DNA of 64,000 nt, from NCBI GenBank assembly GCA_026710655.1, contig JAPOQN010000013.1, forward strand, positions 62,001-126,000, written 5' to 3'. Below the pieces are notes generated by a model. That model searched no databases and was not told the DNA's origin. It was given only the letters and a program-made list of their open reading frames with translations. Of this stretch, positions 23,689-64,000 are shown one piece after another. Position numbers and translations under genes: made by a program. The stretch comes from Chloroflexota bacterium. Its GTDB lineage: Bacteria > Chloroflexota > Dehalococcoidia > Tepidiformales > Tepidiformaceae. The first letter of the stretch is position 1. The number at the start of each line of letters is the position of its first letter.

Positions 23689-23722
23689 CCCTCCGGCAGG
23701 GTCGCGGGCCAGAGTCTTCGCC

Positions 23723-24706
23723 ATGGCCCAGACCCTCGTCAGCATCCGAGACCTCTCCGTCCGCTACCGCTCGCGCGACGAAGCCGCCTACGCCCTCGAC
23801 CAGGTCTCCTTCGATATCGAGCGCGGCCAGGTCTTCGCCCTCGTCGGCGAGTCCGGCTCCGGCAAGACCACCATCGGCATGTCCATCATCAATCTCCTCC
23901 CCGACGAGGCGGACATCCTCGGCGGCGAGGTCTGGTTCGGCGACCAGAACGTCCTCGACCTCGACGAACGCTCGCTCCGCGAGATCCGCGGCCGCCGCGT
24001 CACCATGATCTTCCAGGACCCCGTGGCCGGGCTGAATCCGGTCATCTCCGTGGGCGACCAGGTCGGCGAGATGCTGACCAACCACCTCAACTGGCGGAAG
24101 AAGGAGGCGAGGGAGGCGGCCATCGAGATCCTCGCCGGCGTGGGACTGGCCGACCCCAAGCGCGTGGCCGAGTCGTACCCGTTCCAGCTCTCGGGCGGCA
24201 TGTGCCAGCGCGTCATGATCGGCATCGCCACGGCCCTCAAGCCCGACCTCATCGTCGCCGACGAACCCACCGCCGCCCTCGACGTCACCGTCCAGGCCCA
24301 GATCCTCCACCAGCTCGACACCCTCCGGCGCGAGCAGGGCACCACCATCCTGCTCATCACCCACGACTTCGGCGTCGTCTCCCAGATCGCCGATGAGGTG
24401 GGGGTCATGTACGCGGGCCACCTCGTCGAGACGGGCACGGTCCGGGACGTGCTCTCCGCGCCCCTCCACCCCTACACCCACGGTCTCCTCGCCGCCCGTC
24501 CCCGCCTCGACTCCGTCGGCCAGGAGCTCTACGCCCTCCCCGGCACCACCCCCGACCTCGACAAGCCTGCCGACCACTGCCCCTTCATCCCCCGCTGTCG
24601 CAAGGCCGTGCAGCAGTGCCGCGACGTCCGTCCGCCCCAGCTCACTCCCGTCCCCGGCCAGTCCAGCCGCCGCGTCGCCTGCTACAACCCCCTCTGGCAG
24701 GGTTGA
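23723..24706 (+). CDS. Peptide/nickel-type ABC transporter ATP-binding protein, DppD/OppD-like
   Basis: The 327-residue ATPase has Walker A GESGSGKTT (42-50), signature LSGGMCQRV (about 161-169), Walker B LIVADEPTAALD (about 181-192) and switch His in LITHDFG. The C-terminal oligopeptide-transporter extension is present: CPFIPRCRKAVQQCRD with three Cys plus a late VACYN Cys, as in OppD/DppD and OppF. The protein would energise an inner-membrane permease pair. No permease or second ATPase (DppF) is adjacent; dppB and dppC are 27 kb away, so this may be a shared component. It is 34 bases after lexA. Confidence 0.88.
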   Translation: MAQTLVSIRDLSVRYRSRDEAAYALDQVSFDIERGQVFALVGESGSGKTTIGMSIINLLPDEADILGGEVWFGDQNVLDLDERSLREIRGRRVTMIFQDPVAGLNPVISVGDQVGEMLTNHLNWRKKEAREAAIEILAGVGLADPKRVAESYPFQLSGGMCQRVMIGIATALKPDLIVADEPTAALDVTVQAQILHQLDTLRREQGTTILLITHDFGVVSQIADEVGVMYAGHLVETGTVRDVLSAPLHPYTHGLLAARPRLDSVGQELYALPGTTPDLDKPADHCPFIPRCRKAVQQCRDVRPPQLTPVPGQSSRRVACYNPLWQG

Positions 24707-24709
24707 GGG

Positions 24710-49478: not shown

Positions 49479-49577
49479 GGTTGTCCTCTTCCGGCCGGAT
49501 GCGCGCATACCCGCTCCGACAGTCGCTGGAAAGTGCAGGGATTATAGCGACTATGACAGGGCTCCCGCCCCCTCCCG

Positions 49578-50345
49578 CTAGCGCGCCGAGCCCCCCGAAA
49601 CGGTCAGCAGCGCTCCTGTCGTGAAGCTCGATGCCTCCGAGGCGAAATAGAGCGCCGCCCCCACGATCTCCTCCGCCTGCCCGCCCCGCGCCAGCAGGAT
49701 CGTGCTGGCCGCGCGCGCCTCGAACGCTTCCATGTCCCACGCCTTCGAGATGTCCGTCAGGAACGGCCCCGGGATGATGCAGTTCACCCGCACCTTCGGC
49801 GCGAACGTCCGCGCGAACCCGATCGTCAGGTTGTTCAGTCCCGCCTTCGCCGCCCCGTATGCGAGCGCGTTCGGCCCGGGGCTCTGCGAGGCCGTGCTCG
49901 AGACCATGACGACCGAGCCCCCCTCACCCTCCGCCATGCGCGTCGCGACGTTCGCGGTCAGCCGGAACGGACCCTTCAGGTTCACGTCGAGCACCTTGTC
50001 GTAGAGCGCCTCGCTCACGTTGCTCACGTGGTCGTACAGGGGCGACAGGCCGGCGTTGTTCACGAGCACGTCGACCTTGCCGAACTCGGCGTAGGCCGCC
50101 TCCGCCAGCGCATCGACCTGCTCCCACTCGCCCACGTGGCACGCCACGGGCAGCGCCCGCCGCCCCGTCTCCGCCCGAACCTCCTCCGCCAGCGCCTCGC
50201 ACGAGTCCAGCTTGCGGCTCGCGATGACCACGTCCGCACCGGCCCGCGCGAAGCTCCGCACCATGGCCGCCCCCAGGCCCCGGCTCCCGCCCGTCACGAG
50301 CGCCACCTTCCCGCTCAGGTCGAACAACTCCGCCACTTCGCTCAT
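49578..50345 (-). CDS. SDR family oxidoreductase
   Basis: The 255-residue classical SDR has TGGSRGLG (about 18-25), NNAG with SPLYDHVSN after it, catalytic Ser in MVSSTASQ, and YGAAKAG for Tyr/Lys. The late VNCIIPGPFLTDISK and LLTVSGG close the fold. R at the end of strand 2 (SRKL) suggests NADP use. It is on the same strand as the second P450 (99 bases upstream of it) and may act on the product of the P450. Length and motifs are normal. Confidence 0.87.
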   Translation of the reverse strand: MSEVAELFDLSGKVALVTGGSRGLGAAMVRSFARAGADVVIASRKLDSCEALAEEVRAETGRRALPVACHVGEWEQVDALAEAAYAEFGKVDVLVNNAGLSPLYDHVSNVSEALYDKVLDVNLKGPFRLTANVATRMAEGEGGSVVMVSSTASQSPGPNALAYGAAKAGLNNLTIGFARTFAPKVRVNCIIPGPFLTDISKAWDMEAFEARAASTILLARGGQAEEIVGAALYFASEASSFTTGALLTVSGGSAR

Positions 50346-50385: not shown

Positions 50386-50631
50386 CTAGCCGTGGTGGGA
50401 CGGCAGATCGCGCCAGGAGACGCGCCGGCGGGGCACCAGCGGACGCACCTCGTCCCAGCGCTGGAACACGGTCACCGCTCCCGCCGTGAACGCCTTCGTC
50501 ACGGCCTCGCGCAAGGCGTCGCCGGTCTCGCCGCCGCGTTGCCGTTCCTGCTCCCAGTAGGCCTCCGCCCACGCCACCACCATCTCCCCGAGCTGATCGC
50601 CCGCTTCGTCGTTTGCGCTTCCCTGAGCCAT
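50386..50631 (-). CDS. Hypothetical protein, 81 aa
   Basis: This 81-residue protein starts at ATG 50631 with GGGAG at the right spacing. It is helical and amphipathic: EAGDQLGEMVVAWAEAYWEQERQR, then ETGDALREAVTKAFTAGAVTVFQRWDEV, and a basic tail. I do not recognise it. It lies 40 bases upstream of the SDR on the same strand and is divergent from dppB, so it may be the first gene of that operon. Codon use fits the host. Confidence 0.5.
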   Translation of the reverse strand: MAQGSANDEAGDQLGEMVVAWAEAYWEQERQRGGETGDALREAVTKAFTAGAVTVFQRWDEVRPLVPRRRVSWRDLPSHHG

Positions 50632-50863
50632 AACGCCTGCTCCCTCGCTGGCCTGCTGCAGAGTGTACGGCGGCGCGAGCCCATCGCCCCGCCGTTCCGT
50701 AAAGGGAAACCCGCGATGGTTGCGATCGCCGAACGGATCGCAGAGAATCCCGTGCATCGCGCGAGAGCGGCCAGTGGGCCGCGCCCGCCAAGGGGGGACG
50801 GCGAGAGGGGCAGGGGCCGATTCCGCGCCGCGGCGCGAAGCCCTGCCGCTCCAGGTCACAGCT

Positions 50864-51814
50864 ATGACCCGTTACATCGTCCGCAGACTCGTTGCCGTCC
50901 CCTTCATGCTGCTGGGCATCTCCTTTTTCCTCTTCATGCTGCTCTACATCCGCCCGGGCAGCGCTGCCTTCGCCGCTATCGGTTCCGTGGGCGACGCCGA
51001 CCCGCGCGCCTTCGAGAACTTCGAGAAACGCTTCGGCCTCGATCGCCCCTGGTACGTGCAGTACGGAGACTGGCTCTGGGGCGCCCTTCAGGGAGACATG
51101 GGCGAACGCCTGACCCCGCCCCATGACGATGTGATGGGGGACATCATCGAGGTGCTCCCCAACACCCTTGAAATCGGCCTGCTGACGATCTTTATCTCTT
51201 CCGTCGTCGGAGTCTCCGTGGGGGTGTTGTCCGCCGTTCGCAGAAACAGCATCCTCGACTACGGCTTCCGAGGGATCACGATCATGGGGCTCTCCATCCC
51301 CAACTTCTGGTTGATGATCCTCGTGATCTACTTACCCGCGCTCTGGTGGGGATGGACGCCCGCCCGCCAATGGGTCGTCTTCACCGACGAGCCCATCTAC
51401 AACCTCTCCCTCGCAATCTGGCCGGCCATGACCCTTGGGCTCGCCAGCTCCGCCGGCATTGCGCGCTTCACCCGCACCTCCATGCTTGAGGTGCTCTTCT
51501 CCGACTACGTACGAACTGCCCGCGCCAAGGGCCTCCGTGATCGCAGGGTCATCTGGGGGCACGTCTTCCGCAACTCGCTCATCCCTGTGATCACGCTCCT
51601 CGGCCTCCAGCTTGGCGGAGTCCTTGGCGGCGTCGTCATCGCCGAGCAGCTCTTCACCGTCCCCGGCCTGGGTCGCCTCGCGCTCGAAGGTGTGACGGAT
51701 CAGGACTACCCGGTCGTGCTGGCCACGATCATGGTCTTCGCCTTCGTCTTCATCATCGTGACCCTCATTGTCGACATCCTGTACACGATCGTTGACCCAA
51801 GGATTCGGTACTAG
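50864..51814 (+). CDS. dppB: Dipeptide/oligopeptide ABC permease, DppB-like
   Basis: The 316-residue inner-membrane protein has about six helices, a typical long extracytoplasmic loop after helix 1 (RPGSAAFAAIGS...RFGLDRPWYVQYGDWLWGALQGDMG) and the EAA loop YVRTARAKGLRDRRVIWGHVFRNSLIPVITLLGLQLGG, which contacts the ATPase. The last PGLGRLALEGVTDQDYPVV and VDILYTIVDPRIRY are signature ends of DppB/OppB. It pairs with dppC two bases downstream. Start ATG 50864 is chosen because the first transmembrane helix begins at once. The matching ATPase gene lies elsewhere (23.7 kb). Confidence 0.92.
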   Translation: MTRYIVRRLVAVPFMLLGISFFLFMLLYIRPGSAAFAAIGSVGDADPRAFENFEKRFGLDRPWYVQYGDWLWGALQGDMGERLTPPHDDVMGDIIEVLPNTLEIGLLTIFISSVVGVSVGVLSAVRRNSILDYGFRGITIMGLSIPNFWLMILVIYLPALWWGWTPARQWVVFTDEPIYNLSLAIWPAMTLGLASSAGIARFTRTSMLEVLFSDYVRTARAKGLRDRRVIWGHVFRNSLIPVITLLGLQLGGVLGGVVIAEQLFTVPGLGRLALEGVTDQDYPVVLATIMVFAFVFIIVTLIVDILYTIVDPRIRY

Positions 51815-51816
51815 CC

Positions 51817-52782
51817 ATGTCACAGGAGCAGACAACCGCCCAGGAAGGCCAGGCCGCCGAAGCAGCCCTCGCGCTTGAGTACGCGATCCCGCCGCGGCAG
51901 CGGTTCAATCCGTTCAAGTGGGCGCGCCGGGAGCCGTTCGGCGCCTTCGGCCTTGTCCTCATCGGCCTCGTCGTCTTCCTTTCCCTGGCGGCGCCGGTGC
52001 TCCGCACCTCGCCCCCCAACGAGTTCGCGGTCGGACCTCCCCTTGCAGGGCCAAACGCCGACAACTGGTTCGGCACCACCGCGCGTGGCAAGGATGTCTG
52101 GTCGCGAGTCCTCTTCGCCGGGCGCATCTCCCTCAAGATCGGCATCGCCACCGTGCTCCTCGGCACGCTGGGCGGTACGCTCATCGCTCTCGTGTCTGCG
52201 TACGCGGGCGGCGCCGTTGACTTTGCCGTCGGCCGTATTGCGGACATGTTTATCTCGATCCCGGGCATCCTCATAGCACTTGTGCTGCACTCGTCCATCA
52301 GCGCCGATCTGCCCGATTTACCAGGACTCCAACGCCAGGAGTTGTACCTCGTCATCGCGATCTCCCTGTTCTTCATGCCCGGTACCTACCGGATCATGCG
52401 AGGCACCGTGCTCGAGTTGCGCGAGGCCACCTACGTCGAGGCGGCCCAGGTCGTCGGCTCGAGCAGTTTCCGCATCATGTGGCGGCACGTCGCCCCCAAC
52501 ATGTTCGGCCTCATGATCGTCATCACGAGCATCTCGCTTCCGGCCGCCATCCTCACCGAGGCCACCCTCAGCTTCCTCGGGCTGGGCGTTCCCATTGGCG
52601 GGCTCGATGCCGTGCCATCCTGGGGCGCCGACCTCTCCGGCAGCTCCCGCCGCTTCTTCAGCGTGGCTCCGTGGCTGGCGATCTTCCCCGGTCTCGCCCT
52701 CGCGATCACGGTCTTCGGCTTCAACATCTTCGGGGACTCGCTCCGCGACACCCTCGACCCACGGCTGAGGGGCCGCATCTAG
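51817..52782 (+). CDS. dppC: Dipeptide/oligopeptide ABC permease, DppC-like
   Basis: The 321-residue protein has a cytoplasmic start, a first helix in FGLVLIGLVVFLSLAAPVL, then the large NWFGTTARGKDVWSRVLFAGRISLKIG region typical of DppC/OppC, and the EAA loop EATYVEAAQVVGSSSFRIMWRHVAPNMFG. The end DSLRDTLDPRLRGRI is the family C terminus. It forms the membrane channel with dppB for peptide-like or other solute uptake. It is followed by a terminator, so the binding proteins downstream are transcribed separately. Confidence 0.92.
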   Translation: MSQEQTTAQEGQAAEAALALEYAIPPRQRFNPFKWARREPFGAFGLVLIGLVVFLSLAAPVLRTSPPNEFAVGPPLAGPNADNWFGTTARGKDVWSRVLFAGRISLKIGIATVLLGTLGGTLIALVSAYAGGAVDFAVGRIADMFISIPGILIALVLHSSISADLPDLPGLQRQELYLVIAISLFFMPGTYRIMRGTVLELREATYVEAAQVVGSSSFRIMWRHVAPNMFGLMIVITSISLPAAILTEATLSFLGLGVPIGGLDAVPSWGADLSGSSRRFFSVAPWLAIFPGLALAITVFGFNIFGDSLRDTLDPRLRGRI

Positions 52783-52813
52783 GCCGGCAGCGTCCTTTCC
52801 CCAGCCATCGAGA

Positions 52814-52841
52814 AGGCCCGCCCGCGAGGGCGGGCCTCTTT
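52814..52841 (+). terminator. Rho-independent terminator after dppC (GNRA-loop hairpin)
   Basis: Ten-pair stem AGGCCCGCCC / GGGCGGGCCT with GCGA loop, followed by CTTTAC. The GCGA loop is a GNRA tetraloop, which stabilises RNA hairpins. This hairpin family recurs after each of the four binding-protein genes. Confidence 0.85.
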
Positions 52842-52859
52842 ACTGTGGCGCTTTGCGCG

Positions 52860-52906
52860 ATTGCGTATACTGCGCGAATCCCAAATCCCGGGAGGGGATG
52901 GCGTTT
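52860..52906 (+). promoter_or_regulatory. Promoter/leader of binding-protein gene 1
   Basis: An extended -10 GCGTATACT (TATACT at 52866-52871) lies 41 bases before the ATG. Downstream, TCCC-AAATCC-CGGGA gives a short inverted repeat that runs into the Shine-Dalgarno GGGAGGGG. The same layout recurs before the other three genes. Confidence 0.75.
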
Positions 52907-54823
52907 ATGCGAGACAACGAGAACTATTGGAAGAGGCTCCGGCGCCGGCCGGTCAGCCGCCGCAGCTTCCTGGTGGGGAGCAGCGTAGCCGCAGTTGGCT
53001 CAGCCGCGATCCTCGCCGGCTGCGGTGACGACGATGACGACGACGACGGTGCAGCTGCCCCTGCGGCCACGCAGGCCGCCGCCCAGGAGCAGGCCGCTGC
53101 CGCCACCGAGGCTGCCGCCGAGGAGCAGGCCGCTGCCGCCACCGAGGCTGCTGCCACGCAGGCCGCCGCCCAGGAGGAGGCCCCCGACAGCAAGCGCGGC
53201 GGTACCCTGCTCAACTGGAAGACGGAAGAGGACGCGGGGCTCGACCCGGGCGTCTTCCACCTGAACAACCGCGAAATCCACAACGGCACGATGACGCAGC
53301 CGTACACCTATCAGGCCACGAAGAACCTCTTCGCCATGGACGGCATGGTTGGCTTCGAGCAGGTCGACCCCACCACCTTCGTGTGGAGCGTTCGCCCGGG
53401 CATGAAGTTCCACAACGGCGACCCCGTGGACGCCGAGGCCGTCGCCTTCAGCTTCGGCCGCCTCGAGAAGCTCTACCGTGCCCTCGACGGCACGCACACC
53501 ACCCGCACCGGCTACGCCTTCGTCGATAGCTTCGAGGCGACCGACGAGCTCACCGTGGCCGAGCACTGGGCCAGGCCCAACGCGGACGCTCCCGTGTACC
53601 GCGCGGCCCACTACTACTCGTTCCTGAACCCGCGCATCGTGGAGGAGCACGGCCACTTCGAGGGCTCCTATGAGGCCGCAGACGGGACGATCGAGGACGT
53701 CACCAGCGTGCAGGAGCTGCCCTTCGGTTCCGGCAGCGGTCCCTACACGATGACCAGGCGCGATGCGACTGGTACGCGCATCGAGCGCTGGCCGGACTAC
53801 CACAAGCACAGCCCCCCCGACGATGGCTTTGTCGAGGATGGGCCCTACATCGACGCGTGGGAGACGCGCGTTATCCCCGATGCGGTGGCAGCCAAGGCGG
53901 CCTTCCTCGCCGGCGACCTCGATGTCTTCACGAACGTCGACCCGCTTGAGGTTCCCGAATTCGAGAACCAGGACCATGTCAACATCGTTGAGATTACCGG
54001 GGACGGCGGGCTCTGCATGCAGGGCATGGACGGCGGCAAGTTCCACGACAAGCGCTCGCGGCAGGCCCTGCAGAAGTCGCTTGACTACGAGGGCTTCATC
54101 GCGGCCATCCGCCCGCTTGGCGGCCAGTACGCCGCCCCTATCTCCGACCTCATTCCGGCCTACCAGAAGCTGAGCCAGCAGGATCTGCAGGAGTGGTATC
54201 GCTTCGATCCCGCCGAGGCGCAGGCCCTCTGGCAGGCGGCGGACTTCGTCCACCCGGTGGAGAACATCAAGATCTTCCAGTCGACGGGCGCGCCCCTGCA
54301 GCACGAGATCAGTGACTTCCTGGCGCAGTCGATCGCGACCGCGCTGGGCCCGATCGGCGTCACGACCGAGGTTGAGGCTGTTGACGGCAACACGTGGGCG
54401 GCCCGTGCGGTCGACCGCAGCACCGACGTGAAGGACTGGGAGATTCTCAGCTACGGCACCGGCGATAGCAGTGGCACGGACGGAATCCCCAACAACGGCT
54501 TCCTCATCAACTACGACCCGCGAGCCTACGGCTTCAACGCGTTCAACCACTACGCCGAGTCGCCGCGACCCGAGATCGCCGAGGGCTCGAACACCATCAT
54601 CGAGATGCTGAACGCCCAGGAAGCCGAGACCGACCCCGAGGCCCGCGCCGTCCTCCTCACGGATGTGCAGCGCTGGATCCTCGACAACCACTGGTGCAAC
54701 TGGCGCCTGCCCGTCAGTTCGGTCTCGTACTTCGGCTTCAGCTCACGGCTCCAGGACCAGGGCGCCGCGGACTGGCTCAACGGATACAGCCTGCGTCGCG
54801 AGGCGATGTGGCTCCAGAGCTAG
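52907..54823 (+). CDS. Family-5 ABC substrate-binding lipoprotein, copy 1
   Basis: The 638-residue protein starts at ATG 52907. It has a Tat signal (SRRSFL at 17-22) followed by a lipobox ILAGC, so Cys39 is lipidated after folded export. A poly-Asp tract and a 12-residue Ala/Glu/Gln/Thr repeat (QAAAATEAAAEE) form a flexible linker, about 50 residues. The binding domain has WSVRPGMKFHNGDPVDAEAVAFSFGRL and GSGPYTMTRRDATG, GLCMQGMDGGKFHDKRSRQALQKSLDYEGF and FLINYDPRAYGFNAFNHYAESPR, the DppA/OppA fold. It binds its ligand outside and delivers it to the DppBC permease or another. It is the first of four tandem copies. Confidence 0.9.
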   Translation: MRDNENYWKRLRRRPVSRRSFLVGSSVAAVGSAAILAGCGDDDDDDDGAAAPAATQAAAQEQAAAATEAAAEEQAAAATEAAATQAAAQEEAPDSKRGGTLLNWKTEEDAGLDPGVFHLNNREIHNGTMTQPYTYQATKNLFAMDGMVGFEQVDPTTFVWSVRPGMKFHNGDPVDAEAVAFSFGRLEKLYRALDGTHTTRTGYAFVDSFEATDELTVAEHWARPNADAPVYRAAHYYSFLNPRIVEEHGHFEGSYEAADGTIEDVTSVQELPFGSGSGPYTMTRRDATGTRIERWPDYHKHSPPDDGFVEDGPYIDAWETRVIPDAVAAKAAFLAGDLDVFTNVDPLEVPEFENQDHVNIVEITGDGGLCMQGMDGGKFHDKRSRQALQKSLDYEGFIAAIRPLGGQYAAPISDLIPAYQKLSQQDLQEWYRFDPAEAQALWQAADFVHPVENIKIFQSTGAPLQHEISDFLAQSIATALGPIGVTTEVEAVDGNTWAARAVDRSTDVKDWEILSYGTGDSSGTDGIPNNGFLINYDPRAYGFNAFNHYAESPRPEIAEGSNTIIEMLNAQEAETDPEARAVLLTDVQRWILDNHWCNWRLPVSSVSYFGFSSRLQDQGAADWLNGYSLRREAMWLQS

Positions 54824-54864
54824 CCTCTCCGAACCCCGGGCGCTCCTAGAGCGCTCGACCAGAC

Positions 54865-54903
54865 AGCGAAGGGCCCGCCCGCGAGGGCGGGCCCTTCGCT
54901 TTT
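54865..54903 (+). terminator. Rho-independent terminator after binding-protein gene 1
   Basis: Sixteen perfect pairs (AGCGAAGGGCCCGCCC / GGGCGGGCCCTTCGCT), GCGA tetraloop, then a T run ending 54903. The strongest of the series; it isolates gene 1 from gene 2. Confidence 0.9.
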
Positions 54904-54911
54904 GCGTGGCC

Positions 54912-54962
54912 CGCAAATCCGTATACTTCGCGGAATGCCAAACTTTGGGAGGGAATTCGCGT
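54912..54962 (+). promoter_or_regulatory. Promoter/leader of binding-protein gene 2
   Basis: CCGTATACT with TATACT at 54922-54927, again 41 bases before the ATG. The leader has CCAAACTTTGG, a near-perfect inverted repeat that ends in the Shine-Dalgarno GGGAGGG. A good -35 is not clear. Confidence 0.75.
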
Positions 54963-56876
54963 ATGCGTGACAACGAAAACTACTGGAAGAGGCTCCGGCG
55001 CCGGCCGGTCAGCCGCCGAAGCTTCCTCGTCGGCAGCGGCGTGGCCGCCGCCGGCTCCGCCGCGATCCTCGCGGGCTGCGGCGATGACGACGATGACGAT
55101 GACACCGCGGCCCCCGCCGCGACCCAGGCGGCTGCACAGGAGCAGGCCGCTGCCGCCACCGAGGCTGCTGCCGACGAGCAAGCCGCCGCTGCCGACGAGG
55201 CCGCCGGCGACGAGCAGGCCGCTGCCGAGGAGGCGCCCGTCGACAGCAAGCGCGGCGGCACCCTGAAGCTCTGGAAGACGGAAGAGGACGCGGGCCTCGA
55301 CCCCGGTGTCTTCCACCTCAACAACACCGAGGTCATCTACTCCACGATGACCCAGCCCTACACCTACCAGCCCACCAAGAATGTGTTCGCCATGGACGGC
55401 ATGGTCGGCTTCGAGCAGGTCGACCCGACGACGTTCGTGTGGAGCATCCGCCCGGGCATGAAGTTCCACAACGGCGACCCCGTGGACGCCGAGGCCGTCG
55501 CCTTCAGCTTCGGCCGCCTGGAGAAGCTCTATCGCGCGCTCGATGGCACGCACACGACTCGCACCGGTTTTGCCTTCGTCGACAGCTTCGATGCGACGGA
55601 CGAGCTGACGGTGACGGAGAACTGGGCGCGCCCCAACGCGGACGCGCCGGTCTACCGCGCGCGCCACTACTACTCCTTCGTGAACCCCCGGATGGTGGAG
55701 GAGCACGGTCACTTCGAGGGCTCCTACGAGCATGCCGACGGCACGGTCGAGGACGTGTACAGCATCCAGGAGCTGCCGGCCGGCTCGGGCAGCGGCCCCT
55801 ACACGATGACCAGGCGGGATGCCACGGGCACGCGCGTCGAGCGCTGGCCCGACTACCACAAGCACACCCCCGCCGATGACGGCTTCGTCGAGGACGGACC
55901 GTACATCGACGCCTGGGAGACGCGCGTGATTCCCGACGCGGTGGCGGCCAAGGCCGCCTTCCTCGCCGGCGACCTCGACGTGTTCGCCTCCATCGACCCG
56001 CTGGAGCTTCCCGAGTTCGAGGGCCTGGACCACGTCAACGTGGTCGAGGTCCCCGCCGGTGGCCGCTCCTCGCAGGGCATGGACGGCGGCAAGTTCCACG
56101 ACAAGCGCTCGCGGCAGGCCCTGCAGAAGGCCTTCGACTACGAGGGCTTCATCGCGGCCATCCGCCCCCTCGGCGGCAAGCTCAACGCCCCTATCACCGA
56201 CCTGTTGCCGGCCTACCAGAAGCTGAGCCAGCAGGAGCTGGCACAGTGGTATCGCTTTGATCCCGCTGAGGCGCAGGCCCTCTGGCAGGCGGCGGACTTC
56301 GTCCACCCGGTGGAGAACATCAAGATCTTCCAGGCCACGGGCGCGCCGCTGCAGCACGAGATCAGCGACTTCATGGCGCAGTCGCTGGCCAAGGCGCTGG
56401 GACCGCTGGGCATCACCACCGAGGTTGAGGCGGTTGACTCGAATTCCTGGGCGGCCCGTGCGGTCGACCGCAGCACCGACGTGAAGGACTGGGAGATTCT
56501 CAGTTACGGCACGGGCGATGCTGGAGGCACGTCCGGCGTCCCCAACGACTCGCACCTCATCCATTACGACCCGCGGGCCTACGGCTTCAACGCGTTCAAC
56601 CACTACGCGGAGTCGCCTCGCCCCGAAATCGCCGCCGGCGCCGCCGAGATCATCGAGTTGCTGAACGCCCAGGAAGCGGAGACGGACCCCGAGGCCCGGG
56701 CCGAGCTCCTCACCGGTGTTCAGACCTGGATCCTCGACAACCACTGGTGCAACTGGGGCCTCCCCATCAGCACCGTGTCCTACTACGGCTTCAGCTCGAG
56801 GCTTCAGGACCAGGGTATCGACAACTGGCTCAACCACTACGACCGGCGCCGCGAGTCCATGTGGCTCCAGAGCTAA
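54963..56876 (+). CDS. Family-5 ABC substrate-binding lipoprotein, copy 2
   Basis: The 637-residue paralog of copy 1 starts at ATG 54963 and has the same Tat motif SRRSFL, lipobox ILAGC and poly-Asp tract. Its linker reads QAAAATEAAADEQAAAADEAAGDEQAAAEEAP, so the 12-residue repeat is diverged. The mature domain is near-identical to copy 1 through most of its length (for example GMKFHNGDPVDAEAVAFSFGRLEKLYRALDGTHTTRTGFAFVDSFDATDELT). Differences cluster in GGRSSQGMDGG and GVPNDSHLIHYDPR, the region around the ligand pocket entrance. Expression is independent. Confidence 0.9.
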   Translation: MRDNENYWKRLRRRPVSRRSFLVGSGVAAAGSAAILAGCGDDDDDDDTAAPAATQAAAQEQAAAATEAAADEQAAAADEAAGDEQAAAEEAPVDSKRGGTLKLWKTEEDAGLDPGVFHLNNTEVIYSTMTQPYTYQPTKNVFAMDGMVGFEQVDPTTFVWSIRPGMKFHNGDPVDAEAVAFSFGRLEKLYRALDGTHTTRTGFAFVDSFDATDELTVTENWARPNADAPVYRARHYYSFVNPRMVEEHGHFEGSYEHADGTVEDVYSIQELPAGSGSGPYTMTRRDATGTRVERWPDYHKHTPADDGFVEDGPYIDAWETRVIPDAVAAKAAFLAGDLDVFASIDPLELPEFEGLDHVNVVEVPAGGRSSQGMDGGKFHDKRSRQALQKAFDYEGFIAAIRPLGGKLNAPITDLLPAYQKLSQQELAQWYRFDPAEAQALWQAADFVHPVENIKIFQATGAPLQHEISDFMAQSLAKALGPLGITTEVEAVDSNSWAARAVDRSTDVKDWEILSYGTGDAGGTSGVPNDSHLIHYDPRAYGFNAFNHYAESPRPEIAAGAAEIIELLNAQEAETDPEARAELLTGVQTWILDNHWCNWGLPISTVSYYGFSSRLQDQGIDNWLNHYDRRRESMWLQS

Positions 56877-56922
56877 CCGTTCCGACCCACGGGCGCTCGT
56901 AGAGCCGCCCGGCCACGCAACG

Positions 56923-56950
56923 AAGGGCCCGCCCGCAAGGGCGGGCCTTT
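56923..56950 (+). terminator. Rho-independent terminator after binding-protein gene 2
   Basis: A 12-pair stem (one G-T) around AAGGGCCCGCCC / GGGCGGGCCTTT with GCAA tetraloop, then TTTG. Same hairpin family as after dppC. Confidence 0.82.
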
Positions 56951-56993
56951 GTGCGTGTCCCTCCTTTACAGGATCGCATTGCCCCCTTGCGCG

Positions 56994-57039
56994 TATGCGT
57001 ATACTGGGCGAATCCCAGAATTGGGGAGGGCTCTCCCGC
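56994..57039 (+). promoter_or_regulatory. Promoter/leader of binding-protein gene 3
   Basis: GCGTATACT with TATACT at 57000-57005, 40 bases before the ATG. The leader has CCCAGAATTGGGG, an inverted repeat (CCCA and TGGG), followed by Shine-Dalgarno GGGAGGG. Confidence 0.75.
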
Positions 57040-58953
57040 ATGCGTGACAACGAGAACTACTGGAAGAGGCTCCGGCGCAGGCCGGTTACCCGCCGCAGTT
57101 TCCTGGTGGGGAGTGGTGTAGCCGCAGCTGGCTCCGCTGCCATCCTCGCAGGCTGCGGCGACGACGATGACGACGACGAGGCAGCGCCCGCCGCCACCCA
57201 GGCCGCGGCCGCGACGGAGGCCGCCGAGGAACAGGCTGCCGCTGCGACCGAGGCCGCCGGCGACGATGAGCAGGCTGCCGCTGCCACCGAGGCTGCGGCC
57301 ACCCAGGCCGCCCAGGCGGACCCCGACGCGGACAAGCGCGGGGGCACCCTGAAGCTGTGGAAGACGGAGGAGGATGCGGGCCTCGACCCGGGCGTCTTCC
57401 ACGTGAACAACACTGAGGTCCTCTACTCCACGATGACCCAGCCCTACACCTACCAGCCGACCAAGAACCTCTTCGCCATGGACGGCATGGTCGGCTTCGA
57501 GCAGGTCGACCCCACCACCTTCGTGTGGAGCATCCGCCCGGGCATGAAGTTCCACAACGGCGACGCGGTGGATTCCGAGGCCGTGGCCTTCAGCTTTGGC
57601 CGCCTCGAGAAGCTCTACCGCGCGCTTGACGGCACGCACACGACGCGTACCGGCTTCGCCTTCGTCGACAGCTTCGAGCCCACCGACCCACTGACGGTGA
57701 CGGAGCACTGGGCGCGCCCGAACGCCGACGCGCCGGTGTACCGCGCCCGCCACTACTACTCCTTCCTCAACCCCCGCATGGTGGAGGAGCACGGCAAGTT
57801 CGAGGGCTCCTACGAGCACCCGGACGGAACTATTGAGGACATCTACAGCGTCCAGGAACTCCCGCACGGCTCCGGCAGCGGCCCCTACACGCTGGCCAAG
57901 CGCGATGCGACCGGAACGCGTGTCGAGCGCTGGCCCGACTACCACAAGCACACCCCGGCTGATGATGGCTTCGTCGAGGATGGACCCTACATCGACGCCT
58001 GGGAGACCCGAGTCATTCCCGACCAGGTCGCGGCCAAGGCCGCCTTCCTCGCGGGCGACCTCGACGTCTTCGCGGCAGTCGACCCGCTGGAGCTTCCCGA
58101 GTTCGAGGGCCTGGACCACGTCTCCGTGGTCGAGGTTCCTGCGGGAGGCTTTGCCGGGCAGGGCATGGATGGCGGCAAGTTCCACGACAAGCGCTCCCGG
58201 CAGGCGTTGCAGAAGGCTGTCGACTACGAGGGCTTTATCGCCGCCCTCCGTCCCTTCGGCGGCCAGTTTGCCGCCCCCATCAGCGACCTCCTGCCCGGAT
58301 ACCAGAAGCTCTCGCAGGAAGAGCTGGCGACCTGGTACCGCTACGACCCGGCGGAAGCTCGGGCCCTCTGGGCGGCCGCCGATTTCGAGGTACCCGTCGA
58401 GAAGATCAAGCTCTTCCAGTCGAGCAGTTCACCGCTGCAGTTCGAGATCAGCGACTACGTGGCCCAGTCCCTGGCGAAGGCGCTCGACATCGAGACCGAG
58501 GTCGAGGCGACTGACGCCAACACCTGGGCCGCTCGTGCGGTCGACCGGAACCAGGACGTGAAGGACTGGGAGCTTCTCAGTTACGGCACGGGCGACTCGG
58601 GCGGTACCAGCGGTGTCCCCAACGACACCCACCTCATCCACTACGACCCGCGGGCGTATGGCTTCAACGCCTTCAACCACTACATCGAGTCCCCTCGCAA
58701 GGAGATCGCCGCGGACGCCCAGGAGATCGCGGACATGCTCAACGCGCAGGAGGCCGAGACCGACGTCGAAGCCCGCGCCGCCCTCCTTACCGAGGTGCAG
58801 ACCTGGATCCTCGATCGTCACTGGTGCAACTGGAAGCTGCCCATCAGCCAGGTCTCCTACTTCGGCTTCAGCTCCCGGCTCCAGGACCAGGGCGTTGCCG
58901 ACTGGCAGAACTTCTACGACCGCCGCCGCGAGTCCATGTGGGTCCAGTCGTAA
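57040..58953 (+). CDS. Family-5 ABC substrate-binding lipoprotein, copy 3
   Basis: The 637-residue copy starts at ATG 57040, with TRRSFL as the Tat motif, ILAGC lipobox and poly-Asp followed by EAAPAATQAAAATEAAEEQ linker. The mature domain follows copies 1 and 2 up to about residue 480, then shows its own residues around KLFQSSSSPLQFEISDYVAQSLAKALDIETEVEATDANTWAARAVDRNQDVKDWEL. Ligand preference may thus differ in the C-terminal lobe. Independent promoter and terminator. Confidence 0.9.
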   Translation: MRDNENYWKRLRRRPVTRRSFLVGSGVAAAGSAAILAGCGDDDDDDEAAPAATQAAAATEAAEEQAAAATEAAGDDEQAAAATEAAATQAAQADPDADKRGGTLKLWKTEEDAGLDPGVFHVNNTEVLYSTMTQPYTYQPTKNLFAMDGMVGFEQVDPTTFVWSIRPGMKFHNGDAVDSEAVAFSFGRLEKLYRALDGTHTTRTGFAFVDSFEPTDPLTVTEHWARPNADAPVYRARHYYSFLNPRMVEEHGKFEGSYEHPDGTIEDIYSVQELPHGSGSGPYTLAKRDATGTRVERWPDYHKHTPADDGFVEDGPYIDAWETRVIPDQVAAKAAFLAGDLDVFAAVDPLELPEFEGLDHVSVVEVPAGGFAGQGMDGGKFHDKRSRQALQKAVDYEGFIAALRPFGGQFAAPISDLLPGYQKLSQEELATWYRYDPAEARALWAAADFEVPVEKIKLFQSSSSPLQFEISDYVAQSLAKALDIETEVEATDANTWAARAVDRNQDVKDWELLSYGTGDSGGTSGVPNDTHLIHYDPRAYGFNAFNHYIESPRKEIAADAQEIADMLNAQEAETDVEARAALLTEVQTWILDRHWCNWKLPISQVSYFGFSSRLQDQGVADWQNFYDRRRESMWVQS

Positions 58954-58997
58954 TCCTTCCGACCCCTGGGCGCCCTGCGCGCCCAACCAGCACAGTG

Positions 58998-59024
58998 AGG
59001 CCCGCCCGCAAGGGCGGGCCTTTT
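58998..59024 (+). terminator. Rho-independent terminator after binding-protein gene 3
   Basis: Ten-pair stem AGGCCCGCCC / GGGCGGGCCT with GCAA tetraloop, then TTTCTT. Fourth member of the hairpin family. Confidence 0.85.
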
Positions 59025-59047
59025 CTTGCCTGTCCTACCCTTATGAG

Positions 59048-59094
59048 CGTGCGTATACTGGGCCAATCCCACATTTGGGAAGGGGTCCGCCTTC
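59048..59094 (+). promoter_or_regulatory. Promoter/leader of binding-protein gene 4
   Basis: GCGTATACT with TATACT at 59054-59059, 41 bases before the ATG. The leader has CCCACATTTGGG, a perfect CCCA/TGGG inverted repeat, followed by GGGAAGGGG. Confidence 0.75.
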
Positions 59095-61002
59095 ATGCGC
59101 GATAACGAGAACTATTGGAAGAGGCTTCGGCGCCGCCCGGTCAGCCGTCGCAGCTTCCTCGTCGGCAGTGGCGTAGCCGCCGCCGGCTCCGCCGCCATCC
59201 TCGCCGGTTGCGGCGATGATGATGACGACGACACGGCTGCCCCCGCCGCGACCCAGGCTGCCGCCCAGGAACAGGCTGCCGCAGCCACCGAGGCCGCTGC
59301 CGAGGAGCAGGCTGCCGCAGCCACTGAGGCCGCCGCTGAGGAACAGGCTGCTGCCCAGGAGCCCGCCCCCGACGCCAAGCGCGGCGGCACGCTGAGGTGG
59401 TGGAAGACGGGCGAGGACGCCGGTCTTGACCCGGGCATCTTCCACGTGCTCAACACCGAAGTGACGCACGCCACGATGACCCAGCCCTACACCTACCAGC
59501 CCACGAAGAACCTCTTCGCGATGGATGGCATGACGGGCTTCGAGCAGGTCGATTCCACCACCCTCGTGTGGAACATCCGCCCTGGCATGCAGTTCCACAA
59601 CGGCGACCCCGTGACCTCGGAGGCGGTGGCCTTTAGCTTTGGTCGCCTCCCCAAGCTGTATCAGGCTCTGGGTGGTACGCACGTCACCAGCTCCGGGTTC
59701 GACTTCGTGGATGAGTTCGAGGCGGCCGACGAGAATACGGTCGTCGAGCACTGGAGCCGCCCCAACGCCGACGCGACCGTCTACCGTGCGCGGCACTACT
59801 ACTCGTTCCTCAACCCCCGCATGGTCGAGGAACACGGGAATTTCGAGAGTGCGGTCGAGCTGGCCGACGGCACGACGGAAGACATGTACAGCATCCACAA
59901 CCTGCCCGACGGCACGACGAGCGGCCCCTACAGGCTTACGAGCCGCACCGCCACGGGCACCCGTCTGGAGCGCTGGCCGGACTACCACAAGCACACCCCC
60001 GCCGACGACGGCTTCGTCGAAGACGGCCCCTACATCGACGCCTGGGAGACGCGCATCATCCCCGACCAGGTGGGAGCGAAGGCCGCGTTCCTCGCCGGCG
60101 ACCTCGACATCTTCGCCTCGGTTGACCCCCTCGAGCTCAGCGAGTTCGAGGGCCAGGACCACGTGAAGGTGTATGAGGTGCCCGCGGGTGGGCGCGCCTC
60201 GCAGGGCATGGACGGGGGCAAGTTCCACGACAAGCGCTCCCGCCAGGCGCTGCAGAAGGCCTTCGACTACGAGGGCTTCATCAACGCCATCCGCCCGCGC
60301 GGTGGCCAGCTGGCCGCTCCCATCTCGGACCTGCTTCCGCACTACCAGAAGCTGAGCCAGCAGGAGCTGGCCACCTGGTACCGCCACGATCCCGTCGAAG
60401 CCCGGGCCCTCTGGGCGGCGGCGGACTTCATCCACCCGGTCGAGAAGATCAAGGTCTTCCAGTACAGCGGCCCGCCTCTCCAGCAGGAGATCAGCGACTA
60501 CATGGCCCAGTCCCTCGCCACCTCGCTCGGCATCGAGACCGAGGTCGAGGCCGTCGACATCAACAGCTGGGCGGCGCGGGCAAACGACCAGAGCGAGGAC
60601 GTGAAGGACTGGGACATCCTCAGCTACGGCACCGGCGATAGCGGCGGTACCACTGGTCTCCCCAACGACAGCCACCTCATCAACTACGACCCCCGCGTCT
60701 ACGGGTACGTCGCCTTCAACCACCGTGCGGACTCACCCCGCAAGGAGATCGCCGAAGACTCGGTGACCCTTATCGGGATGCTGGAGGCACAGGAAGCGGA
60801 GACCGACGTCGAGGCTCGCGCCGAGATCCTGACGGATGTCCAGCGCTGGATCCTCGATAACCACTGGTGCAACTGGGGCCTCCCCATCAGCTCCGTGTCG
60901 TACTACGGCTTCAGCTCGCGCATGCGCGACTTCGGCCTCGAGGACTGGCTCAACTCCTACGCCTTCCGTCGCGAGTCCATGTGGCTCGAAGACGACGCCT
61001 AG
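59095..61002 (+). CDS. Family-5 ABC substrate-binding lipoprotein, copy 4 (diverged)
   Basis: The 635-residue copy starts at ATG 59095 with SRRSFL, ILAGC, poly-Asp and two clean 12-residue linker repeats (QAAAATEAAAEE). The mature domain differs from copies 1-3 at many sites (RWWKTGEDAGLDPGIFHVLN, GMQFHNGDPVTSEAVAFSFGRLPKLYQALGG, IFASVDPLELSEFEGQDH). The C terminus ends in WLEDDA. It is probably an older duplicate with a different ligand. The gene is closed by the 61045-61075 terminator, so the DUF3179 gene starts a new unit. Confidence 0.9.
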   Translation: MRDNENYWKRLRRRPVSRRSFLVGSGVAAAGSAAILAGCGDDDDDDTAAPAATQAAAQEQAAAATEAAAEEQAAAATEAAAEEQAAAQEPAPDAKRGGTLRWWKTGEDAGLDPGIFHVLNTEVTHATMTQPYTYQPTKNLFAMDGMTGFEQVDSTTLVWNIRPGMQFHNGDPVTSEAVAFSFGRLPKLYQALGGTHVTSSGFDFVDEFEAADENTVVEHWSRPNADATVYRARHYYSFLNPRMVEEHGNFESAVELADGTTEDMYSIHNLPDGTTSGPYRLTSRTATGTRLERWPDYHKHTPADDGFVEDGPYIDAWETRIIPDQVGAKAAFLAGDLDIFASVDPLELSEFEGQDHVKVYEVPAGGRASQGMDGGKFHDKRSRQALQKAFDYEGFINAIRPRGGQLAAPISDLLPHYQKLSQQELATWYRHDPVEARALWAAADFIHPVEKIKVFQYSGPPLQQEISDYMAQSLATSLGIETEVEAVDINSWAARANDQSEDVKDWDILSYGTGDSGGTTGLPNDSHLINYDPRVYGYVAFNHRADSPRKEIAEDSVTLIGMLEAQEAETDVEARAEILTDVQRWILDNHWCNWGLPISSVSYYGFSSRMRDFGLEDWLNSYAFRRESMWLEDDA

Positions 61003-61044
61003 CCGCTACGCCCCCTGGGCGCCCCCGGCGCCCATCCAGCACGG

Positions 61045-61075
61045 AAGGCCCGCCCATTGGGCGGGCCTTTCTTTA
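61045..61075 (+). terminator. Rho-independent terminator after binding-protein gene 4
   Basis: Eleven-pair stem AAGGCCCGCCC / GGGCGGGCCTT with ATT loop, then TTCTTT. The loop is not GNRA, unlike the others. Confidence 0.85.
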
Positions 61076-61113
61076 CCTGTCCCGCGTGCACGACTCCGCC
61101 GGGGGGTAGCATC

Positions 61114-62475
61114 GTGCGGGTGAACCGGTTTCTCCCCGCCATCGTCGCCGCCCTCGTGATCCTCGGCGCCGCCTGCGGCGACGACGCGCCCCCACCCCCC
61201 GCCACTCCGCCCGCGGCCACGGAGGCTGCCGCCACCGTGCAGGACACCCCCACGCCCGCAGCCACGCCGCCCCCCGACTCCGCCACCCCCTCCCCGACGC
61301 AGGCCGCTGCCGCCTCCGACGAAGACATCGACGAGTGCCCCTACGCCCACCACACCGACCCCTCCGGCCACATCGACATCGTCCGCCTGCCCCCCGATTT
61401 CTGCCGCGACTGGCCCAACCAGGACTGGTCCCGGCACACCGTGCCCTTCGGCCAGATCATTCGCGGCTGCGGCGGACGCGACTGCATCCTTGCCCTCGAT
61501 ACTCCCGGCGCCGTCTCCACCGAGGGCCACTACGGTGTCGCCCGCTTTGCCCCCGTCGATGCCGTCGACTACGCCGAGAACCTGCCCATCGCCGTCCTCC
61601 GCATCGGGGACGTGGCTCGCGGCTACCCCCTCCACATCCTCACCTTCCACGAGATCGTCAACGACGAGGTCGCGGGTGTGCCCGTCGCCGCCTCCTTCTG
61701 CCCCCTCTGCAACACCGTGCTCGCCTTCGACCGCCGCGTCGAGGGCGCCGTCCTCGACTTCGGCGTCTCCGGCAACCTGCGCCACTCCGACCTCATCATG
61801 TGGGACCGCCAGACCGAGACCTGGTGGCAGCAGGCCACGGGTGAGGCCATCGTCGGGCGTCACGCCGGCGTCTTCCTGCGCACCTTGCCGATGAGCGTCC
61901 TCTCCTTCGGGGACTTCCGGCGCGCCTTCCCCGATGCCGACATTCTTACCGAGGAGACGGGCTTCAGCTTCCTCTACGGCACCAACCCCTTCCCGAACTA
62001 CGACCAGGGAAGCTCTCCCAAGTTCTTCCTCTGGAGGCCCGACGGCCGCCTGCCCGCCCTCGAACGCGTCATCGCGCTCTCGTCCGGCGACGAAAATCTC
62101 GCCATTCCCTTCACGCTCCTCGCCGAGGTCACCCTCGCGACCATCGAGTTGGCCGGGACCAGGGTGGTCGTGCTCTGGGCGCCCGGCACCCTTTCCCCCC
62201 TCGACGACTTCCAGATCGCGGACTCCCGCGACATCGGCAGCGCCGCCGCCTACCTCCCCGAGGTCGATGGCCGCCGCCTCACCCTCGCCCCCGTCCCCGG
62301 TACCCCCGGCCGCTTCCGCGACGAGGAGACCGGCTCCCTCTGGGACGTGACCGGGCTGGCCGTCTCCGGCCCCCTCGCCGGCTCCCGCCTGCCCCCCTTC
62401 GCCCACGGCAGCCCGTTCTGGTTCGCGTGGGCCGCCTTCAATCCCCAGGCCCCCATCTGGGAGCCGCCATCCTGA
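61114..62475 (+). CDS. DUF3179 family lipoprotein
   Basis: The 453-residue protein starts at GTG 61114, with a signal helix FLPAIVAALVILGAACG and lipobox Cys, then a Pro/Thr/Ala-rich linker (TPPAATEAAATVQDTPTPAA). The DUF3179 part has GYPLHILTFHEIVNDEVAGVPVAASFCPLCNTVLAFDRRV, DFGVSGNLRHSDLIMWDRQTETWWQQATGEAI, SFLYGTNPFPNYD and FWFAWAAFNPQAPIW. The FC-PLC-NT motif has Cys pairs that may bind metal. Function of the family is not established; it is common in marine and soil bacteria. It stands outside the membrane. No close relation to the binding proteins besides the linker style. Confidence 0.88.
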   Translation: MRVNRFLPAIVAALVILGAACGDDAPPPPATPPAATEAAATVQDTPTPAATPPPDSATPSPTQAAAASDEDIDECPYAHHTDPSGHIDIVRLPPDFCRDWPNQDWSRHTVPFGQIIRGCGGRDCILALDTPGAVSTEGHYGVARFAPVDAVDYAENLPIAVLRIGDVARGYPLHILTFHEIVNDEVAGVPVAASFCPLCNTVLAFDRRVEGAVLDFGVSGNLRHSDLIMWDRQTETWWQQATGEAIVGRHAGVFLRTLPMSVLSFGDFRRAFPDADILTEETGFSFLYGTNPFPNYDQGSSPKFFLWRPDGRLPALERVIALSSGDENLAIPFTLLAEVTLATIELAGTRVVVLWAPGTLSPLDDFQIADSRDIGSAAAYLPEVDGRRLTLAPVPGTPGRFRDEETGSLWDVTGLAVSGPLAGSRLPPFAHGSPFWFAWAAFNPQAPIWEPPS

Positions 62476-62570: not shown

Positions 62571-63458
62571 ATGGAATTCGGCGTGACCTACTCCCCCACG
62601 CACTACAACGCGAGCGTTGTCAGCGTCGCCCGCGAGGCCGAGCGCTTCGGGTTCGAGTCCCTCTTCATTCCCGAGCATTCGCACATGCCTCTCGCGACCG
62701 ACTTCCCCCTCGCCCCCGAGACCCCCATGGTCTACAAGAGCATGTACGACCCCTTCGTCGCGCTCGCCGCCGCCGCCGCCGTCACGGAGAACCTCAGGGT
62801 CGGCACCTCCATCGCCCTCATCCCCCAGCGCGATCCCATCCACACGGCCAAGGAAGTCGCCACCCTCGACCAGATCTCCAACGGACGCGTCGTCCTCGGC
62901 ATCGGCGCCGGCTGGAACGCCGAGGAGATGGAGGCACACGGCACCGATCCCTCCACCCGCTTCCGCGTCATGCGCGAGAAGGTCGAGGCCATCAAGACCC
63001 TCTGGACGCAGGAGGTCGCCGAGTACCACGGCCGCCACGTCGATATCCCTCCCACCTGGCAGTGGCCCAAGCCCGTGCAGGACCCCCACCCGCCCATCCT
63101 CATGGGTGGCGCCGGACCGAACGTCCTCAACCGGGTCGTCAACTACTGCGACGGCTGGCTGCCCGCCGTGCATATGAACTTCACCGAGGACCTGCGCGGC
63201 CGCTTCACCCCCGTCGAGGAGTTCCCCGACGAGGTCGCGAAGCTCCAGCGCCTCGCCGCCGAGCGTGGCAAGCCCCGGCCCCAGGTCCAGTGCGGCGTCG
63301 ACATGACCAGCCGCATCCCCCTTGAGCAGCTCGAGGAGATGGGCGTCACCCGCCTCATGCTGGGCCTCGGCGGCCCCGCGCTTGAGGGCGTCACCGACGA
63401 CGAGGTCCGCCCCGCCCTCGAGCGCGCACGGGAGCGCGTCGACCAGCTGACCGGCTGA
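62571..63458 (+). CDS. LLM class F420-dependent oxidoreductase, copy 1
   Basis: The 295-residue TIM-barrel protein starts at ATG 62571 behind AGGAGG. It has the LLM F420-dependent pattern: MEFGVTYSPTHYNASVVSVAREAERFGFESLFIPEHSHMP, ENLRVGTSIALIPQRDPIHTAKEVATLDQISNGRVVLGIGAGWNAEEMEAHG, HPPILMGGAGPNVLNRVVNYCDGWLP and a last VTRLMLGLGGPALEGVTDD. The TIGR03619-type signature (IPQRDPIHTAKE...SNGR...GWN.EE) is clear. It probably reduces or oxidises an organic substrate with coenzyme F420. Its paralog follows. Confidence 0.92.
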   Translation: MEFGVTYSPTHYNASVVSVAREAERFGFESLFIPEHSHMPLATDFPLAPETPMVYKSMYDPFVALAAAAAVTENLRVGTSIALIPQRDPIHTAKEVATLDQISNGRVVLGIGAGWNAEEMEAHGTDPSTRFRVMREKVEAIKTLWTQEVAEYHGRHVDIPPTWQWPKPVQDPHPPILMGGAGPNVLNRVVNYCDGWLPAVHMNFTEDLRGRFTPVEEFPDEVAKLQRLAAERGKPRPQVQCGVDMTSRIPLEQLEEMGVTRLMLGLGGPALEGVTDDEVRPALERARERVDQLTG

Positions 63459-63499
63459 CGCCGCCGGGAGACCCGCCACCAACCGCCGGGAGGTCCGTC

Positions 63500-64000
63500 A
63501 TGGAATTCGGCCTGAACTACGCGCCCACGCACTTCAATGCGAGCATCGTCAACGTTGCCCGCGAGGCCGAGCGCGTCGGCTTCGAGTGCCTCGGCGTGCC
63601 CGAGCACTCGCACATGCCCCTCGCGACCGACTTCCCCCTCGCCGCCGAAACGCCCATGGGCTACAAGAGCATGTTCGACCCCTTCGTCTCGCTGGCGGCG
63701 GCCGCCGCCGTCACGGAGAAGATCAAGGTCGTCACCTGCCTCGCCCTCGTCCCCCAGCGCGACACCATCCATACGGCGAAGGAGATCTCCACTCTTGACC
63801 AGATCTCCAACGGGCGTGTCGTGTTCGGCATCGGCGCCGGCTGGAACCACGAGGAGATGGAGGCGCACGGCGTCGACCCCTCGACCCGCTTCCGCCTGAT
63901 GCGAGAGAAGGTCGAGGCCATGAAGGTCCTCTGGACCGAGGAGGTCGCCGAGTACCACGGTCGCCACGTCGACATCCCTCCGACCTGGCAGTGGCCCAAA
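63500..64000 (+). CDS. LLM class F420-dependent oxidoreductase, copy 2, cut by window end
   Basis: A paralog of the preceding gene starts at ATG 63500 behind GGGAGG; only the first 167 residues are in the window. It keeps MEFGLNYAPTHFNASIVNVAREAERVGFECLGVPEHSHMP, the IPQRD-type block (here LVPQRDTIHTAKEISTLDQISNGRVVFGIGAGWNHEEMEAHG) and RHVDIPPTWQWPK. Differences from copy 1 (SV to NV, LF to LG, N to H in GWN[A/H]EE) may shift the substrate. The open frame continues past 64000. Confidence 0.9.
   Translation, partial: MEFGLNYAPTHFNASIVNVAREAERVGFECLGVPEHSHMPLATDFPLAAETPMGYKSMFDPFVSLAAAAAVTEKIKVVTCLALVPQRDTIHTAKEISTLDQISNGRVVFGIGAGWNHEEMEAHGVDPSTRFRLMREKVEAMKVLWTEEVAEYHGRHVDIPPTWQWPK

Follow-up and report, generated by a model that had tools for sequence, protein, structure and literature searches.

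A tandem array of four predicted Tat-exported binding lipoproteins behind a single Dpp-type permease pair in a Chloroflexota genome

Results

Layout of the array

The DNA analysed here, called the window in the following, is a stretch of 64,000 nucleotides from a Chloroflexota bacterium of the family Tepidiformaceae (assembly GCA_026710655.1, contig JAPOQN010000013.1, positions 62,001 to 126,000). On its forward strand, four open reading frames (ORFs) of 638, 637, 637 and 635 amino acids, termed U1 to U4, are located directly 3´ of a Dpp-type permease pair (50864-52782), and each encodes an SBP_bac_5 protein. The original prediction, a tandem array of four binding lipoproteins of the twin-arginine translocation (Tat) type following a single permease pair, is borne out by the ORFs, the SBP_bac_5 and BPD_transp_1 domains and the export motifs. 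The sequence data make it rather probable that this locus encodes a multi-receptor ATP-binding cassette (ABC) importer, in which receptors made as transcription units of their own would share permB and permC and would be powered in trans. The features are listed below; the letters a to e denote classes of units matched across species.

50864..51814, + strand: permB, Dpp/Opp-type permease (BPD_transp_1, E 2.2e-40) with the D, T, K, H and N of the coupling region
51817..52782, + strand: permC, Dpp/Opp-type permease (BPD_transp_1, E 1.2e-23)
52814..52837, + strand: hairpin with T tail 3´ of permC and 5´ of U1, probably left behind as terminator by a lost unit a (permC-to-first-unit spacers compared in nine genomes)
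52866..52871, + strand: TATACT, proposed -10 element of U1 (comparative)
52907..54823, + strand: U1, Tat-lipoprotein binding protein, class b (SBP_bac_5, tree)
54867..54898, + strand: terminator hairpin of U1, from RNA folding
54922..54927, + strand: TATACT, proposed -10 element of U2 (comparative)
54963..56876, + strand: U2, class c (by position and identity; the tree gives no resolution within classes a to c)
56923..56950, + strand: terminator hairpin of U2, from RNA folding
57000..57005, + strand: TATACT, proposed -10 element of U3 (comparative)
57040..58953, + strand: U3, class d (sequence, tree)
58997..59022, + strand: terminator hairpin of U3, from RNA folding
59054..59059, + strand: TATACT, proposed -10 element of U4 (comparative)
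59095..61002, + strand: U4, class e (91-93% identity with the last unit of four relatives; tree)
61043..61071, + strand: terminator hairpin of U4, from RNA folding
23723..24706, + strand: lone OppD-type ATPase (ABC_tran and oligo_HPY), 27 kb from permB, a possible, unproven partner

The spacers between the units measure 139, 163 and 141 bases (the last by coordinates). All four units passed the cut-off of Pfam SBP_bac_5 (PF00496; 32.4 bits) in the family search of the genome, with 140.2 bits (E 1.2e-40) for U1 and 156.5 bits (E 1.3e-45) for U4. The pairwise comparison that the original prediction had called for gave mature-domain identities of 74-85%: 85% for U1-U2, 80% for U1-U3, 85% for U2-U3 and 74-77% for U4 against the others. 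We dismiss an assembly artefact, since the copies are too divergent and one relative has five units on a single 924-kb contig.

All four units carry a [ST]RRSFL twin-arginine motif and an LAGC lipobox, as well as a run of acidic residues and a linker rich in alanine, and the genome encodes one TatC and one Lgt. From the motif, the lipobox cysteine and the presence of TatC and Lgt, U1 to U4 are predicted to be Tat-exported lipoproteins. Residues 1-40 (from 52907, 54963, 57040 and 59095) are near-invariant among the units (dN 0-0.034), yet their synonymous sites have diverged (dS 0.5-1.0). MRDNENYW-like starts are shared with other binding proteins of the class.

Relatives and classes

A U4 query against 60 genomes matched 18 of them, among which are the nine genomes of the genus, that of the window included. 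In all nine the permease pair and the binding proteins remain together, with one linked permease pair only. The number of units differs: four in the window, at least four in G001 (with a contig break between d and e), five each in G003, G004 and G006, three in G007, two in G002 and one in G008, while G005 has one unit plus an unlinked copy that is 87% identical to the linked one. Most loci with sufficient contig are flanked by SDR, P450 and carboxyltransferase genes upstream and by DUF3179 and luciferase-like genes downstream; in the stretches taken, G005 gave no P450 or carboxylase match and G008 no DUF3179 match. In G008 (L057), about 1.2 kb with a short open frame lie between permC and the sole binding-protein gene.

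In a binding-protein tree of 35 rows (20 of the 31 inner branches starred), U1 clusters with unit 1 of G001 and unit 2 of each of G003, G004 and G006 (100/100), U3 with the fourth units and the third of G001 (82/81), and U4 with the last units of relatives (99/100). By identity, U2 is nearest to unit 2 of G001 and to the third units (88-90%), compared with 84-87% to classes a and b of those genomes. The units match by array position across species of the window's lineage, which argues for old, maintained paralogues and not for fresh dosage copies.

By this matching of units to counterparts in tree and identity, the window has no class a unit, and its array looks like a five-unit array minus its first unit. 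The gap between permC and the first unit differs in form: in the window a shortened permC spacer is fused to a hairpin, which G003, G004 and G006 do not have there, and in G001 a stretch like the upstream region of unit a is fused to an apparent unit 3´ end. We read these scars as two separate deletions, and the hairpin after permC would probably be the left-over terminator of the deleted unit.

The units of G002 and G007 form a separate group, on the tree an independent expansion. Their SDR is 96% identical to that of the window and 83-84% to that of G005 (compared flank 48135-50345). Their permC is 86% identical to that of G005 and 73% to that of the window, and the permease tree unites them with G005 and G008 (100/99). 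Cassette (50864-61002) and flank thus appear to differ in history, either through cassette replacement or through strong acceleration, with a tree for the permeases only.

A second array (L003:7384-13825, contig C8) consists of three binding-protein genes followed by a permease pair and an extra permease gene. Near-identical hairpins (AACGCCGCCC...GGGCGGCGTT) follow its first two genes and a different hairpin the third. This second array suggests that self-contained units arose more than once.

Putative promoters and terminators

Each of the four units is followed by a hairpin of 11-13 pairs, and the 85 bases past the stop codon have fold z-scores of -7.2, -4.9, -4.3 and -4.4 for U1 to U4. Across the genus, a long GC-rich hairpin was found after all 31 units examined, with z-scores of -2.5 to -7.2 for nine of them. 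By scan alone there was no excess of terminator-like sites in 50400-61400 (7 compared with 4.0 +/- 2.3 expected by shuffling).

Upstream, TATACT is located 40-41 bases 5´ of the start codon of all four window units. All 20 class b to e units from five genomes have it at -39 to -42, with conservation mostly fading more than about 10 bases upstream of the element. Class a units have TATAGC at -59 instead (3/3), and the units of the second lineage (G002, G007) have TTACAYT or TTCACATT at -40 or -41 (5/5), a pattern chosen post hoc with the sequences already read. Exceptions are the G005 unit, without such an element, and the G008 unit, with TATACT at -53. A consensus scan of 50400-61400 found no sigma-70-like site (0.8 +/- 1.1 expected by shuffling), and since the scan gives no excess, the case for promoters is a comparative one. 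Of the private promoters and terminators originally predicted, what stands is a hairpin per unit and a conserved TATACT as putative signals.

Other signals were sought in the leaders. A hairpin over the Shine-Dalgarno site was unsupported in the 31 leaders folded (mean z -0.42). A shared regulon was rejected as well: TATACT-N20-34-GGAGG occurs seven times in the genome, compared with one control hit, and one occurrence lies in the array, so that there is no specific signature. The sequence GCGTATACTGNGC has three occurrences in the genome, in the array only. Of the 23 units of the lineage, 19 have a near-palindrome CCCAAA..TGGG just 5´ of the start region (e.g. leader 57000-57039), a loose post hoc pattern with varying spacing. 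RNA folding of the leaders gives it no support; it could be a candidate operator.

Fold and ligand

The structure model of U2 (pLDDT 89.5) has the cluster C fold and matched 172 PDB entries at E values up to 0.001; among the 50 matches listed, at 14-18% identity, it resembles binders of peptides, nickel, opines and sialic acid equally. Anchor residues of DppA were taken from an excerpt of PMC12136057, and their positions were placed by hand on a profile alignment of about 16% identity. At the carboxylate anchor, R383 (mature R355), U1 to U4 have A, A, S and P, and 34 of the 35 rows are non-Arg, the single row with Arg being a distant orphan of G007. At the amine anchor, D436 (mature D408), U1 to U4 have Asp, and several relatives have Thr or Ala. 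The DppA-type pair of Arg and Asp that binds the dipeptide termini is therefore not present in U1 to U4, and none of the four reached the cut-off of an NCBIfam model for a named receptor of peptides or nickel, such as Opp4A or NikA, the best score being 49.9 bits compared with a cut-off of 650 for Opp4A.

The label peptide-binding, part of the original prediction, is for these proteins a family label. The ligand may be peptides or another small solute. The neighbours of the array are mostly oxidative (two P450s, an SDR, a carboxyltransferase and luciferase-like oxidoreductases), and since in addition the fold matches are non-specific and the Arg anchor is absent, a non-peptide solute is possible. 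Downstream, at 62571-64000, lie tandem luciferase-like monooxygenase genes, the second assigned by sequence likeness; the G001 stretch has five such matches.

Divergence among the units

The class consensuses differ at 200 of 542 positions. The original prediction had placed the differences mainly near the ligand pocket; this was not borne out at the two DppA landmarks by which the pocket was gauged, as positions around the counterparts of R355 and D408 were not enriched in differences (four window sizes, one-sided Fisher p 0.16-0.36). Class-specific blocks do exist, for example at mature residues 24-33 and 266-273. For the six paralogue pairs of the window, the ratio of nonsynonymous to synonymous divergence (dN/dS, rough estimates by NG86) is 0.17-0.29, and eight pairs of window units with their orthologues gave 0.09-0.17; the higher paralogue values are as expected for copies that changed role and then were held. 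Units a and b share identical tracts of 212 and 239 bases in G003 and G004, compared with 41-104 in seven orthologue pairs, and these tracts point to gene conversion.

It might also be that the array simply yields much binding protein of one specificity, its signals having been copied with the duplicated segment and its divergence being drift. The shared signals, length and fold family of all copies would fit this, as would the spread of differences along the protein without enrichment at the two landmarks and the identical a/b tracts, which suggest some homogenisation. However, the classes predate the species and have been kept apart, the paralogue dN/dS exceeds that of orthologues, and there are class-specific blocks; we regard this dosage explanation as unlikely. 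A recent duplication for dosage was set aside as the main account because the classes are common to several species.

No ABC ATPase within 7 kb of the Dpp-type permease sets

The search of the genome for other dpp permeases, also proposed with the original prediction, was made for three families. It gave 25 matches to PF00496 (24 over the cut-off), 37 to BPD_transp_1 and three to oligo_HPY, the latter being an adjacent OppD-OppF pair on contig C68 and the lone OppD at 23723-24706, none of them beside a permease. Twenty-seven permease genes, no more than 4 kb from an SBP_bac_5 gene, form 13 Dpp-type sets. No ABC ATPase lies within 7 kb of any of the 13, the array locus included; for each of the remaining 10 BPD permease genes there is one at no more than 1.7 kb. 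This survey used 36 of the 40 ABC_tran matches, and the four weakest, which were omitted, lie off the contigs with Dpp-type sets, save two on C1 about 140 kb off. With no ATPase linked, a point that the original prediction did not raise, the transporter core at the array locus is incomplete. The idea of one core served by several binding proteins is thus upheld as far as the single permease pair and the distinct classes across species are concerned, but not for a complete core.

The shortage extends to the family. Of 36 family genomes, 24 have exactly three oligo_HPY matches, six have one or two and six have four to 13, and SBP_bac_5 matches range from 5 to 34. The single-contig genomes G005, G020, G034 and G060 have 2, 3, 3 and 3 oligo_HPY matches compared with 10, 13, 14 and 16 SBP_bac_5 matches, so the low number of ATPases does not result from assembly gaps.

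Judged by motif and spacing, the C68 pair has four of four DppD and two of two DppF contact residues reported for E. coli, and the lone OppD two of four for DppD. PermB has all five DppB contact residues, spaced as in the E. coli DppB-DppD contacts. The lone OppD (region 23053-25255) adjoins a CPT/AAA_33-type kinase on one side and on the other an ORF that we take to be LexA. In G004, an oligo_HPY match lies 31 kb from the array on the same contig.

Some units might instead deliver in trans to permease pairs other than permBC, or have a scavenging or sensing role. The genome offers 13 Dpp-type sets, four of its 25 SBP_bac_5 matches lack a permease within 10 kb, and the unlinked copy of G005 would fit this as well. 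The array, however, is found beside one and the same pair of permease genes in all nine genomes of the genus, and an SBP_bac_5 gene lies within 4 kb of every one of the 13 sets, which makes this explanation quite improbable.

Discussion

In the multi-receptor importer that we propose, PermB and PermC would form one channel, to which four (ancestrally five) Tat-exported, lipid-anchored binding proteins would compete to deliver their ligands; presumably all four use PermB and PermC, and their ligand ranges differ. With separate promoters, each unit would be a transcription unit of its own, and dose and timing could be set for each receptor. The motor would act in trans and is most likely the OppD-OppF pair on C68, the only adjacent pair of the genome, which would serve the other Dpp-type sets too.

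Several observations weigh against this mechanism. The differences between the units do not gather at the two pocket landmarks, the dN/dS ratios are rough because dS is high, the sigma-70 scan was empty, and in the tree U2 falls inside the group of classes a, b and c without being resolved together with its proposed counterparts. PermC has just one of the three reported DppC contact residues (motif and spacing). For the sets on C30 and C47 the contig ends within 3 kb, and a linked ATPase is possible there beyond the end; ATPases without oligo_HPY could be the partners.

For the family as a whole, we give an even chance to a hub-and-spoke organisation of Dpp-type import. One unlinked OppD-OppF pair would power all permease sets (13 here) with about two dozen binding proteins, and adaptation would proceed by gain and loss of receptor units beside a permease, each complete with promoter, gene and terminator; the window array would be one such rack with ancestrally five units. 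The absence of linked ATPases predicts one ATPase pair driving many importers. In addition, a syntenic locus with one, two, three, four or five units, matching classes and spacer scars allows receptor duplication, divergence and loss to be traced while the channel stays. The family is prevalent in marine sponges according to an excerpt of PMC10284905, and binding proteins of the K02035 type are described in the part of PMC6081418 at hand as the most numerous bacterial function in the metaproteome of the sponge Aplysina aerophoba, not tied there to this lineage.

Comparison with known systems

No description of the present array was found in the open-access literature by title or start of the abstract, which is weak evidence of absence. 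The locus resembles E. coli DppABCDF in its permease family, the DppB coupling residues and the binding-protein fold (1dpp, TM-score 0.73 on the query); in contrast to the array, DppABCDF is a single operon that includes its ATPases and has one binding protein (excerpt of PMC12136057).

The design of the array is, by analogy, already known from Borrelia burgdorferi, its closest precedent. The excerpted text of PMC5736914 describes BbOpp as a system with five binding proteins, three of them in tandem, with a promoter of its own and independent regulation for each OppA gene, shared permeases and a single ATPase pair, and with regulation and peptide uptake measured. Both systems have several binding-protein genes beside one permease pair. 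Unlike BbOpp, the array described here lies 3´ of the permease genes, has a hairpin per unit, Tat-type signals and no linked ATPase, the ATPase shortage spans 13 permease sets, and the system is known from sequence alone. In the pneumococcal Ami/Ali system, several lipoprotein receptors share one permease, as proposed here, with the extra receptors located elsewhere in the genome and not arrayed after the permease genes.

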